A DNA stretch of 20,509 bases from a virus: the IMG/VR virus record IMGVR_UViG_3300032282_000396, positions 1 through 20,509 of that record; one strand, given 5' to 3'. The notes below the pieces were generated by a model. The model did no database searches. It saw only the letters and a list, made by a program, of their open reading frames with translations, and was not told the DNA's origin. The position numbers and the translations under genes are program-made. Shown here piece by piece: positions 16,571-20,296 of this stretch (position 1 is the stretch's first letter; every line of letters starts with the position of its first letter).

Positions 16571-16646
16571 GCACCGATAGCTTAGTGGCTAAAGCCGGCC
16601 GCTCATAACGGTCTTATCGGGGGTTCGAGTCCCTCTCGGTGCACCA
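16571..16646 (+). tRNA. tRNA with CAT anticodon (Ile2 or Met)
   Basis: A full 76-base cloverleaf. The acceptor is 16571-16577 with 16636-16642 (GCACCGA/TCGGTGC, 7 of 7 pairs). The D arm is GCTT/AAGC at 16580-16595. The anticodon arm is GGCCG/CGGTC with loop CTCATAA and anticodon CAT at 16604-16606. There is a 5-base variable loop and a T arm GGGGG/CCCTC with loop TTCGAGT. Discriminator A is at 16643 and an encoded CCA at 16644-16646. The base pairs C4-G69 and C5-G68 are ones I recall as TilS recognition elements of tRNA-Ile2, whereas E. coli elongator tRNA-Met has U4-A69 and A5-U68. AUA-decoding tRNA-Ile (lysidine-modified) is therefore favoured, but not proven. It lies between glutaredoxin and rlpA. 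Confidence 0.93.
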
Positions 16647-17175: not shown

Positions 17176-17183
17176 TATAAATA
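17176..17183 (+). promoter_or_regulatory. T4-type late promoter of the 466-residue gene
   Basis: An exact TATAAATA lies immediately after the rlpA terminator. Using T4 spacing (box at -13 to -6), +1 falls at 17189, exactly the A of the start codon, and no Shine-Dalgarno is present. Confidence 0.75.
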
Positions 17184-17188
17184 TATCT

Positions 17189-18589
17189 ATGGCAAATCCT
17201 ATCAGAATGGCGAGTGGTATAACTTCCTGTTACAAATACGTCAATTATGCTATTGAGGTATTGAGTAAAGACGCACCTATTGCGTTCATAAAAGAAAAAA
17301 ATGGTGGCGGTGACCCCATCATGTTGAACCCAACAAAAAGGTCTCGTGATCTTGCGATTAAAATTCTTAAGACTTTTATTGAAGGCAATAAGCTAAGAGC
17401 AGACATAGCAGACCTAAACGCATATAAAAATGCTATTGATAGCATAGAACTCGACACTTCTAAAGAAGCTGATAAATGGTTTAGTGTTGGGTCTATAATG
17501 AAAAGCAGTGAAAAAGTTCCGTTCGGTTATCTTGCCGAGGTACTACTCCAAGCTGCTATCGTTGCTAGATTCGTTGATGGTAGAACTGGTGGTAGTATCA
17601 ATGCTGCTCATGTAGCCAAATACATCAAACAGTTTCTTGTCGATAAGTCGGATTCTGGTGCATATACTGCCGTTAAAGGTCCATCCGATACCAAGAAATC
17701 TATCGCTAAAGCGTTCAAATATACAGTTCCAAACAAAAAAGCGTCAGTCGGTATAGATACTGTCTATGCATTCTACGTCCTCAACAGTTCGGCTTTTACA
17801 TATCTTAATGCTAGAAAATCTGTGTTGGCTTCTAGCGCAGATTTAGCGCCTTATATCGCTGATGCTTGTAGATATGTCAACTCTGGCGCATGTAAGGAAC
17901 ACGCTGAGTATTTTTATAACAACGGACGCAAAGATCGTATCGATATTGTTTCTACTAGTATCTCAGGTCAGGATAAGAAAAATCCTACGAAAGCTGATAT
18001 CGTGACTGCGTATTATGAGGGTTGGTCCGGAAATGATAAAGCTCCTGGCAAACCTATCGAGATGAAACTCAATCTTTCTGTTAAGATTAATCATGTCACT
18101 CAGGTTGGGCAGGCTTCTGGTCTTCATTCCGAAGCTATGAAAACTTTCGCTGGTGCAGTAGGTATTACACTTCCCGCCGCAACTATCGACAAGATCAATA
18201 AGATCAATCTTAAACCAATCACTACGCAATCACAGACTGATGTGTATAAATTAGTCTATAGTGAGATGTCGAAAGCTAACGACATTGATAAGCTTATAAA
18301 TGGTATTAGTTATTTTATCTCGTTCAATGATAAAACGATCACCATTGTAGATATCGGTGCTGGCCTCAAAGTGTATTTCGTCGAGAACCTTCAGATGTTG
18401 AAGAAACAGTTTAAAGGCAAAAAGTTATCAGCTAAGACTCGTGTTACAGGTGGCGGTAATTATGTTCTGGATGTGTATCTGGGCGAAAGTCAGATTTTAG
18501 AACTCAGCTCGAGAAAAACTGGTGGAATATTCCGTAATTTCGTAAACACTGGTGATGCGTTAAGAAACGTCTTAAGCAAACCTCTATAA
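17189..18589 (+). CDS. Unknown 466-residue protein with a possible PD-(D/E)XK motif
   Basis: A large soluble, basic protein that I cannot place in a family with confidence. The N-terminal third is mostly helical (TSCYKYVNYAIEVLSKDAPI, and VPFGYLAEVLLQAAIVARFV). The middle contains RIDIVSTSISGQ, then KADIVTAYYEGW with Asp270, and IEMKLNLSVKINHVTQVGQ with Glu291-x-Lys293. This D-x20-E-x-K spacing fits the PD-(D/E)XK nuclease core, but the match is weak and needs profile comparison. The C-terminal part is beta-rich (KTITIVDIGAGLKVYFVEN and GGNYVLDVYLGESQILEL). A perfect late-promoter box sets the transcript start at the ATG, so it is probably made late and could be a virion-associated or packaging-related protein. 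AAGGA and a ten-base gap lead into the next gene. Confidence 0.7.
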   Translation: MANPIRMASGITSCYKYVNYAIEVLSKDAPIAFIKEKNGGGDPIMLNPTKRSRDLAIKILKTFIEGNKLRADIADLNAYKNAIDSIELDTSKEADKWFSVGSIMKSSEKVPFGYLAEVLLQAAIVARFVDGRTGGSINAAHVAKYIKQFLVDKSDSGAYTAVKGPSDTKKSIAKAFKYTVPNKKASVGIDTVYAFYVLNSSAFTYLNARKSVLASSADLAPYIADACRYVNSGACKEHAEYFYNNGRKDRIDIVSTSISGQDKKNPTKADIVTAYYEGWSGNDKAPGKPIEMKLNLSVKINHVTQVGQASGLHSEAMKTFAGAVGITLPAATIDKINKINLKPITTQSQTDVYKLVYSEMSKANDIDKLINGISYFISFNDKTITIVDIGAGLKVYFVENLQMLKKQFKGKKLSAKTRVTGGGNYVLDVYLGESQILELSSRKTGGIFRNFVNTGDALRNVLSKPL

Positions 18590-18599
18590 GGACCCCGAT

Positions 18600-18971
18600 A
18601 TGTCAAAAGTAATCTTAAAGTATGAATTCACATCAACACGACCAGATCTTCCATTTGGGGATATTCCTGATTGGACTGGTGATGATGCATTAGTATCTGA
18701 ACAATTTAGAAAACAGATATTGCAACCATTAACCTATTTGTATATGGGATACACCCATTACTCAAATAACTCTATTAGAGCAGCAAGATATTCATTCGCG
18801 AACACAGAAATGGCGATGGAATATCATACGAGACGTAGACAAGCAAATGCTGCTATCTATGCAGCAGTAGAAACAATCAGACAAAGAAAAATAAGCAACG
18901 GCGAATCAGCTCCACTGTCACCCAGATATATTCTGGTTGATGAAAACGGTAACGAAACTATTCTAACGTAG
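18600..18971 (+). CDS. Hypothetical protein, co-transcribed with the 466-residue gene
   Basis: A 123-residue protein, not recognised. AAGGA at 18589-18593 precedes the ATG, and the gene begins ten bases after the previous stop, so both are likely on one late transcript. The N terminus is strand-like (KVILKYEFTSTRPDLPFG). The centre is helical and rich in Tyr, Arg and Ala (YLYMGYTHYSNNSIRAARYS, then AMEYHTRRRQANAAIYAAVE), and a short C-terminal strand ends in ILVDENGNETIL. There is no membrane segment or signal peptide. An intergenic region follows with a consensus promoter that points back across this gene on the opposite strand. Confidence 0.65.
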   Translation: MSKVILKYEFTSTRPDLPFGDIPDWTGDDALVSEQFRKQILQPLTYLYMGYTHYSNNSIRAARYSFANTEMAMEYHTRRRQANAAIYAAVETIRQRKISNGESAPLSPRYILVDENGNETILT

Positions 18972-18993
18972 TTGACCGCTTCGTAACACTCAT

Positions 18994-19022
18994 ATTATAT
19001 CATGTTACCTTTGTGTTGTCAA
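18994..19022 (-). promoter_or_regulatory. Perfect consensus sigma70 promoter on the minus strand
   Basis: Read on the minus strand: TTGACA (19022-19017), a 17-base spacer, and TATAAT (18999-18994), a complete consensus match. The predicted start is near 18987, transcribing leftward as antisense to the genes at 18600 and 17189. No minus-strand gene is visible downstream. Confidence 0.7.
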
Positions 19023-19030
19023 GACGTTTT

Positions 19031-19038
19031 TATAAATA
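19031..19038 (+). promoter_or_regulatory. T4-type late promoter of the nucleotidyltransferase gene
   Basis: An exact TATAAATA with +1 predicted at 19044 gives a leader of about 71 bases before ATG 19115. It lies nine bases from the -35 box of the opposite-facing promoter. Confidence 0.7.
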
Positions 19039-19042
19039 AAGG

Positions 19043-19069
19043 GAGCAGAAAGCTAAGGCAATCCTGCTC
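19043..19069 (+). other. 5' leader stem-loop on the predicted late transcript
   Basis: A 6-bp stem GAGCAG (19043-19048) with CTGCTC (19064-19069) encloses a 15-base loop at the very 5' end of the predicted transcript. A smaller GCGG/CCGC pair (19081-19084 with 19101-19104) follows just ahead of the AGGAG. It could stabilise the mRNA or regulate access to the start. Confidence 0.4.
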
Positions 19070-19114
19070 TCAAATCATTTGCGGTTAGGGTACGCCAGTC
19101 CCGCTAGGAGTGTG

Positions 19115-20296
19115 ATGAAAAGTTTTAAGAGTTTCGTAGTGGAAACTGCGTTTTCTGCCGAAGAAGACAAATCTCACTACACGCACATCGAAGATGAGCT
19201 GTACGTTTCGGGTGCAGGTTCTTTCGCTAAGATCAATGGGTTTTTCCATGACCTTATCAAAGGCATTCCAGAAACTGTAAATCAGACTAAGATTGACGGT
19301 GCTCCTAGCGTATTCTACGGCTACAACGATGGTAAGTTTTTCGTAGCCACTAAGTCTATCTTCAACAAAGATCCTAAGATTAACTACTCGGTCGACGATA
19401 TCGAGCGTAATCACGGTCATGCGCCTGGGCTCGTAGCTAAACTAAAGCTCGCTCTGGAATTCCTCCCACTAATCACTAATAATCGTAACGAAATCCTTCA
19501 GGGCGATATGATGTTCGCTAAGTCGGATTTGCGTAAGGTTAAGATTGATGGTGTGCTTCATTGGTTGTTTAAACCCAACACAGTTATCAATGCTGTTCCT
19601 GTCGATTCAGATTTGGGTAAACAAATTGGTCGTGCGGCTATTGGTTTCGCGCCTCATACGAAGTATAATGCTGCTGGAAGTCGTGTAACGGTTCAAGCTC
19701 GTGATAGCAAGCATAACGCTCATGTATTCCTTATGCCTATCGACGCTCCTATGCTAGGCGAAGTAGGTCATATCCAGGGATACGTCAACGAAATATCCAC
19801 AATGCTTGCGTCGCTTCCTAAGTCTGCTCTTGCTTATGTTTCTACACCAGAAATGAGCAAATGGTTTCTGCAATATGCTAACGATGTCATTCGTAACAAT
19901 ACGGATCAGTCATATGATGGATTCGTCAATTTTATGACGACCAAGCTGCAAAAAGAAATCGACAAGGTTAAGAGCGATAAGGCTAAAGCTGCTAAGCAAC
20001 AGACTCTTGACGACACGATTGCTAGCATCAAGCAGAACTCCAAAGGCATTGCTGCTGTGTTCGAGGTTCATACCGAAATCGCTGGCATGAAAGATAAGAT
20101 CATTGACGAGCTGGATAAGTATCAGCCCATTCGTAGATATTTCGAAAACGAGTTCGGTGGTCTTGTTAAAACAAATCCTGAGGGGTATGTGTTACTTGGA
20201 AAACACGGCACAGCTAAATTAATCAAGCGCCGCGTATTCAGTGCGCAGAACTTTGCTGCTGGCGCATACAGAAAAGCAGGAGCGAAAGATGAATAA
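19115..20296 (+). CDS. Ligase-like nucleotidyltransferase
   Basis: A 393-residue protein with covalent nucleotidyltransferase features. Motif I is KIDGAP with the candidate AMP-acceptor lysine K59. FFVATKSIFNKDPKINYSVDDI holds the motif III-like region, EILQGDMMFAKSDL resembles motif IV (E/QG-type), and LHWLFKPNTVINAVP follows. A Lys/Arg-rich segment near the C terminus (KLIKRRVFSAQNF) could supply motif V-type lysines. Similar proteins occur in cyanophage-type T4 relatives, often beside an NMN-adenylyltransferase-like gene, as here. The substrate is unknown; RNA/DNA end joining or another adenylyl transfer is possible. The C-terminal third is helical, with KEIDKVKSDKAKAAKQQTLD. I start at ATG 19115 (AGGAG at 19106-19110) rather than the in-frame TTG at 19079. 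The stop overlaps the next gene by eight bases. Confidence 0.75.
   Translation: MKSFKSFVVETAFSAEEDKSHYTHIEDELYVSGAGSFAKINGFFHDLIKGIPETVNQTKIDGAPSVFYGYNDGKFFVATKSIFNKDPKINYSVDDIERNHGHAPGLVAKLKLALEFLPLITNNRNEILQGDMMFAKSDLRKVKIDGVLHWLFKPNTVINAVPVDSDLGKQIGRAAIGFAPHTKYNAAGSRVTVQARDSKHNAHVFLMPIDAPMLGEVGHIQGYVNEISTMLASLPKSALAYVSTPEMSKWFLQYANDVIRNNTDQSYDGFVNFMTTKLQKEIDKVKSDKAKAAKQQTLDDTIASIKQNSKGIAAVFEVHTEIAGMKDKIIDELDKYQPIRRYFENEFGGLVKTNPEGYVLLGKHGTAKLIKRRVFSAQNFAAGAYRKAGAKDE

Follow-up and report, generated by a model that had tools for sequence, protein, structure and literature searches.

The window analysed here, the whole 20,509-bp stretch taken from a virus record of a T4-like phage, contains a near-perfect sigma70-type promoter pointing against the genes, and this promoter belongs to a cassette of approximately 50 bp, consisting of the promoter and a conserved first-transcribed stretch (RTGT...GGTCA). 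Judged from sequence comparison, the cassette is placed opposite to genes at fixed stations in related genomes, is under strong selection and is kept whichever gene it overlaps. We consider, at a probability of roughly 45%, that it makes an untranslated RNA that primes phage DNA replication at an R-loop-type origin; transcription at the cassette, its timing, the R-loop and the priming are the parts of this reading that we infer. The initial annotation of the window contained no such role and proposed silencing of the neighbouring late genes or an unrecognised small RNA.

The window has a G+C content of 43% and encodes a clamp loader, a DNA polymerase, a UvsX-like protein and a DnaB-like helicase. 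Its DNA polymerase reaches a best identity of 52% to phages of the named collection, and a DNA-level search of phages using the window as query returned 0 matches. A lone tRNA-Met(CAT) gene is located at 16571-16646 on the plus strand. The credible genes all lie on the plus strand, as annotated initially, and the features surrounding the promoter are the following.

17189-18589, plus strand: 466-aa gene, phrog_3560, function unassigned; next in the antisense path, and preceded by a late-type promoter at 17176-17183
18600-18971, plus strand: 123-aa gene, function unassigned; antisense RNA would enter its 3' end first, and it is swapped for other genes in relatives
18973-18993, minus strand: discriminator and first-transcribed stretch ATGAGTGTTACGAAGCGGTCA, conserved by comparison with relatives; predicted +1 is the G at 18987
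18994-18999, minus strand: -10 hexamer TATAAT, exact match, extended by a preceding TG
19017-19022, minus strand: -35 hexamer TTGACA of the antisense promoter, exact match; TTGAC identical in all 32 distinct uvsY cassettes
19031-19038, plus strand: opposite-facing late-type promoter TATAAATA, 8 bp from the antisense -35; kept in all 16 close relatives of the locus
19115-20296, plus strand: DUF6267/phrog_455 gene, 393 aa from the ATG; constant right-hand neighbour of the cassette

On the minus strand, at 18994-19022, the sequence TTGACAACACAAAGGTAACATGATATAAT matches TTGACA-N17-TATAAT exactly and is the single occurrence of TTGACA-N15-19-TATAAT in the window, in agreement with the uniqueness claimed initially. 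A match with the 17-bp spacer is expected 0.01 times in a window of this kind and was seen in 1 of 100 shuffles. Sigma70-type promoters were defined by -35 and -10 hexamers 16-18 bp apart and a purine start 6-8 nt past the -10; here the hexamers match in 12 of 12 bases, the spacing is 17 bp, TG stands ahead of the -10 and a G is found at +7, whereas the runner-up sites, on the plus strand, score 11 of 12. The predicted start is in accord with the RNA 5' end near 18987 suggested previously. The adjoining late promoter of opposite direction was likewise found as described, but its distance from the -35 is 8 bases rather than nine. In the leader of the DUF6267 gene (19044-19104, plus strand) two alike short hairpins, GCAG..CTGC and GCGG..CCGC with TAAG and TACG loops, were observed; by eye, the relatives L020 and L021 display apparent compensatory changes and L022 and L023 are without the first copy. 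These hairpins gave no match against Rfam at E 5, and the fold z-score of the region is only -1.2.

Relatives of the locus were collected using the DUF6267 gene as search query, yielding 16 close loci of at least 73% identity. All 16 retain the antisense promoter, at a score of 11-12, together with TATAAATA on the plus strand; the alignment displays conserved blocks TGACC, TATTATA, GTCAAG and TATAAATA separated by changed spacers. Among the distant DUF6267 relatives (44 of 64 loci, those under 60% identity) an antisense promoter of score at least 10 was found in 0 of 44. The gene to the left of the cassette varies, with at least four clearly different genes among the DUF6267 relatives. It is the 123-aa gene in the window, L009 and L012, the 466-aa gene in L011 and L022 (with a distant 466-like gene in L010 and L023) and a short gene in L020 and L021, and four more distinct 3' ends, compared over the last ~240 nt, are present in L013, in L014-L017 with L024, in L018 and in L019. 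In several of these loci the TGA of TGACC doubles as the stop codon of the upstream gene.

The same TGACC could also be a sense -35 for the downstream gene in a bidirectional promoter with a shared -10, the antisense half being a by-product of symmetry. With its shared AT-rich -10 and a -35-like TGACC standing opposite, this arrangement resembles the pseudo-symmetrical bacterial promoters described in the available text of PMC12825309 and PMC10268837. A distance of 17-18 bp separates the TGAC core from the shared TATA region, and L010 possesses TTGACC-N18-TATAAT with a sense score of 11. However, the sense half is weak in the remaining 15 of the 16 DUF6267 relatives, with a best score of 7-9 against 11-12 for the antisense direction, uvsY has a separate sense promoter of its own, and it is the antisense half that is conserved; we regard this explanation as very improbable.

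The extent of the element was assessed by scanning IMG/VR with the pattern TTGACR-N17-TATAATA-N3-4-RTGT-N7-9-GGTCA, which returned 77 stretches (a count of stretches, not of independent genomes) against 3 in a control with the last block scrambled. By place, 23 of the 77 are at uvsY, 16 at gp25, 16 at DUF6267, 5 at gp17, 9 at small-terminase-like genes and 4 in sense orientation, with 4 unplaced; all 60 at the uvsY, gp25, DUF6267 and gp17 stations are antisense. Counting the window itself adds one DUF6267 case to the 16. The same pattern gave 11 matches in a collection of bacterial genomes, which were seen as a list only.

Conservation was counted in two sets chosen independently of the pattern, the best 80 of 210 UvsY relatives and 49 gp25 relatives. 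Within the best 80, an antisense promoter matching at least 11 of 12 bases is present in 43 of 43 loci that have sufficient flanking sequence at UvsY identities of at least 60% (15 of these 43 reach a score of at least 11 for the sense uvsY promoter), in 9 of 16 loci at 40-59%, eight of them with the GGTCA stretch and one chance-like, and in 0 of 20 below 40%, one further locus being too short. For gp25 the antisense promoter is found in 11 of 11 loci at identities of at least 53%, in 1 of 28 (L360) from 40% to below 53% and in 0 of 5 below 40%, and five more loci were too short; over the range of 40-59% the count is 8 of 35, seven of which are at 53-58%. These tiers indicate that the element is bound to a clade and strongly kept inside it. 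Across 32 distinct uvsY cassettes TTGAC is invariant, as are the last five bases of TATAAT, the first T being present in 31, and the positions of the 17-bp spacer are mostly variable. The cassette is absent from uvsY in all five cultured relatives examined, a sample of five of 944 matching records, and blast matches in the cyanophages S-RIM12 and Syn33 turned out to be ordinary sense promoters upstream of purC and were set aside. It is very likely, on this comparative evidence, that the antisense promoter is under selection. A chance origin is ruled out by its rarity, the scrambled control and the locus-wise conservation, and the data support a genuine, selected antisense promoter beside a divergent late promoter at the window site. 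The conservation in relatives proposed initially as a check was thus observed, the site being both conserved and repeated.

Near-complete relatives have about three cassette copies each, and the stations at which the cassette is antisense are beside the DUF6267 gene, before uvsY and between gp5 and gp25-gp6. In G001 (154,689 bp) a relaxed scan for the promoter plus the GGTCA stretch identified exactly three sites, all antisense, at the DUF6267 locus, upstream of uvsY and between a 622-aa gene and gp25-gp6; equally strong sense promoters of this genome are without the GGTCA stretch. The UvsY assignment rests on the phrog_231 match of the homologue in G003. The 622-aa gene was at one stage taken as gp5-like, but it is not recognisable as gp5, and gp5 is the preceding gene (phrog_430 match and T4 gp5 structures). 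G013 (139,058 bp) contains antisense copies at uvsY and gp25, a third copy in sense, driving a 131-aa gene, and one additional, weak match, and G017 has antisense copies at uvsY and ahead of a gp17-like terminase. The copy at the gp5/gp25 station is antisense in G001, G013, G014 and others.

Further placements were noted during the scan. In L151, L164, L168, L204 and L217 an antisense cassette separates a 134-aa gene from the gp17-like large terminase. The sense-oriented cassettes of L183, L210 (G013), L171 (G015) and L185 drive a 124-131-aa protein beginning MAILPIYYT... or MGMMPVYFT..., one with a weak phrog_4593 match. A small-terminase-like gene, named by eye, is preceded by a similar promoter plus GGTCA in L155, L156, L161, L173, L174, L192, L207, L220 and L221, in a phage group that is apparently unrelated. 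The uvsY gene has its own sense promoter, TTGACA-N17-TATTAT, a few bases past the antisense -35 (2987-3015 in L122, likewise in G001).

The cassette might produce an antisense regulatory RNA that silences the overlapped late genes early, or a small RNA acting elsewhere. The 60 antisense matches at the four stations are in keeping with this, and there is a precedent of antisense transcription in a T4-like phage, CfrI of cyanophage S-PM2, which, according to the accessible text of PMC2984593, ties psbA to a homing endonuclease gene at a single locus. The cassette differs from CfrI in being repeated and independent of the overlapped gene. Because the upstream gene is repeatedly swapped while the cassette persists, gene-specific silencing is unlikely; no constant target is found, the overlap starts at 3' ends, the RNA common to the copies amounts to ~20 nt and an Rfam search gave no match. 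The purpose proposed initially for the promoter, to silence the 123- and 466-residue genes, is not supported, given the replacement of the left gene and the copies beside other genes at uvsY and gp25, and we regard an antisense regulatory RNA of either type as improbable. A promoter for a minus-strand gene was ruled out at the antisense copies, since a conserved antisense ORF downstream of the promoter was sought in relatives and not found, in line with the earlier judgement that no minus-strand frame is credible.

The strongest rival to the origin reading is an insulator, in which early antisense RNA polymerase would collide with or block sense read-through, so that uvsY, gp25 and DUF6267 obey their own promoters and the RNA product is irrelevant. 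It ranks first because the upstream gene's stop codon directly adjoins the cassette and because, at uvsY and DUF6267, the cassette forms a back-to-back pair with a sense promoter. Nor does it depend on the identity of the upstream gene, and a search for sense terminators detected none at the cassette of the window, against strong ones elsewhere in the window, at 848, 2762, 7166 and 17133. However, an insulator would be needed at many other gene boundaries, yet a genome has only about three sites; the conservation of the first-transcribed stretch is left unexplained, and a copy drives a gene in sense in G013 and G015. We consider the insulator unlikely.

The stretch following the -10 was compared within and between genomes. 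Its mean identity is 0.77 over nine within-genome pairs from five genomes, against 0.58 between genomes at the same locus, and the spacers give 0.48 within and 0.50 between. In four of the five genomes the stretch is more alike within than between genomes (0.80-0.93 within), with the exception of G013, whose three stretches are just 0.50-0.59 identical. Past the first ~20 transcribed bases no sequence common to the copies was detected. The within-genome likeness, although from few genomes, may be a sign of a trans-acting reader or of gene conversion. A phage protein binding the stretch from the -10 to GGTCA as a DNA operator could set the moment at which transcription passes between the antisense early promoter and the late promoter that overlaps it, in which case the RNA would be incidental; the likeness in four genomes, the equally diverged spacers and the two promoters 8 bp apart at the DUF6267 locus would suit such an operator. 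However, the neighbour at uvsY is an early-type sense promoter and not a late one, the stretches of G013 are dissimilar, and conservation of the full -35 and -10 argues that transcription itself matters, making the operator a rather remote prospect.

In T4, PeSL are early promoters that drive genes in sense and have an adjoining stem-loop. Like these, the cassette is a short early-promoter element at the edges of exchanged genes, and it could be a mobile promoter cassette kept for recombination or module shuffling, in keeping with the different genes joined at its edge at the DUF6267 locus and with the likeness of copies within genomes. However, it is antisense, no stem-loop terminator lies beside the window's copy, the uvsY and gp25 stations are fixed over deep divergence with no shuffled neighbours at uvsY, and the conservation of the -35 and -10 exceeds the needs of recombination homology. 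We give this possibility very little credence.

The origins of T4 are the textbook case of transcript-primed replication. To our knowledge, no T4 origin counterpart exists for the DUF6267 and gp17 stations, and we know of no mapped origins in uncultured T4-like phages. In the GenBank record of T4, oriE is placed within gene 5 with the remark '(-) strand direction; primer RNA is complement of gene 5 transcript', oriF is just upstream of uvsY and the oriG primer runs opposite gene 34. T4 has an antisense TTGATG-17-TATAAT at 79349-79377, with the oriE coordinate, 79355, at the edge of its -10; a late promoter TATAAATA lies 409 bp from it on the plus strand, at 79786. As far as the accessible text of PMC3016281 goes, oriE depends on an early promoter, minimal oriF and oriG contain a promoter and an unwinding element with promoter-driven R-loops, and no local motif is apparently common to all T4 origins.

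Two of the three stations of G001, uvsY and gene 5, are thus near T4 origins, and the gp5/gp25 copy has an oriE-like place and orientation, being antisense and opposite to late transcription. Like the cassette, the oriE primer promoter is of the sigma70 early type and antisense to a late gene, baseplate gene 5, and it shares with the gp5/gp25 station the opposite late promoter nearby and the gene 53-5 ... 6 neighbourhood. However, oriE has a weaker promoter (TTGATG), is inside gene 5 and possesses same-strand repEA/repEB and a cluster of 12-nt iterons, whereas the gp5/gp25 cassette has a near-perfect promoter, is located just past the 622-aa gene that follows gp5 and has no iterons. Both oriF and oriG are promoter-driven R-loop origins, the former directly upstream of uvsY, as is the uvsY station, and the latter with a primer opposite late gene 34, but their promoters are MotA middle promoters with an AT-rich unwinding element downstream, an element not clearly seen at the cassette, and the oriF primer is sense to uvsY whereas the cassette is antisense. 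The T4 origins, in contrast to the cassette, are without a conserved first-transcribed stretch.

The constancy of the cassette at a few fixed stations, where it opposes mostly late genes, the T4 origin annotation and the findings of PMC3016281 together lead to the origin-primer reading. Selection, rarity (about three sites per genome), specificity, indifference to the overlapped gene and the match with T4 stations were counted in its favour. According to the mechanism envisaged, host RNA polymerase would initiate at the antisense sigma70 promoter in the early phase of infection and produce an untranslated RNA. This RNA would stay paired to its template as an R-loop, and the phage DNA polymerase would extend it as the primer of the leading strand, in the manner of T4 oriE, oriF and oriG. 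In the late phase, transcription in the opposite direction would start from the adjoining late promoter or, at uvsY, from a sense promoter.

Duplex stability, repeats and base skew were also evaluated. In a pooled comparison of the 150 nt downstream, 40 cassettes were significantly less stable than 418 gene ends, homologous loci not being independent. Within genomes, the DUF6267 site of G001 alone of six is exceptional, with 0 of 83 gene ends equally unstable, the proportions for the other five being 5/43, 12/43, 17/49, 26/49 and 8/23. No clear downstream AT-rich unwinding element is seen at the cassettes, which counts against an origin, and no repeat cluster of the iteron type was found in ~0.9-1 kb at four cassette sites, which weighs on the same side. 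So do the sense direction of the T4 uvsY primer, the DUF6267 and gp17 stations with no known T4 counterpart, the five cultured relatives lacking the cassette at uvsY and the conserved first-transcribed stretch, which is foreign to T4 origins. The third-codon-position GC skew reaches its minimum close to the uvsY copy (G001, 96.7 against 93.2 kb; G013, 114.5 against 114.3 kb); however, the predicted change at the gp25 copy was not seen and the pattern follows the structural-gene block, and GC skew was dropped as non-diagnostic for origins.

More tentatively, the cassette may be a single standardised module for origins that joins a perfect sigma70 promoter to a conserved ~20-nt RNA 5' end and is placed at about three fixed stations, its copies staying alike within most genomes perhaps through a phage factor that reads the stretch, with the antisense copies priming against late transcription. 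In the accessible literature, which includes PMC3037559, PMC2988021 and PMC3014915, most subscription papers being out of reach, no earlier report of this cassette was found. If the cassette is not an origin, it would still be a selected antisense transcription element at three stations, which is unexpected in itself. If it is, origins would be callable from sequence in uncultured T4-like phages, and the repeated cassette offers a way to ask directly whether origins commonly rely on antisense early promoters.
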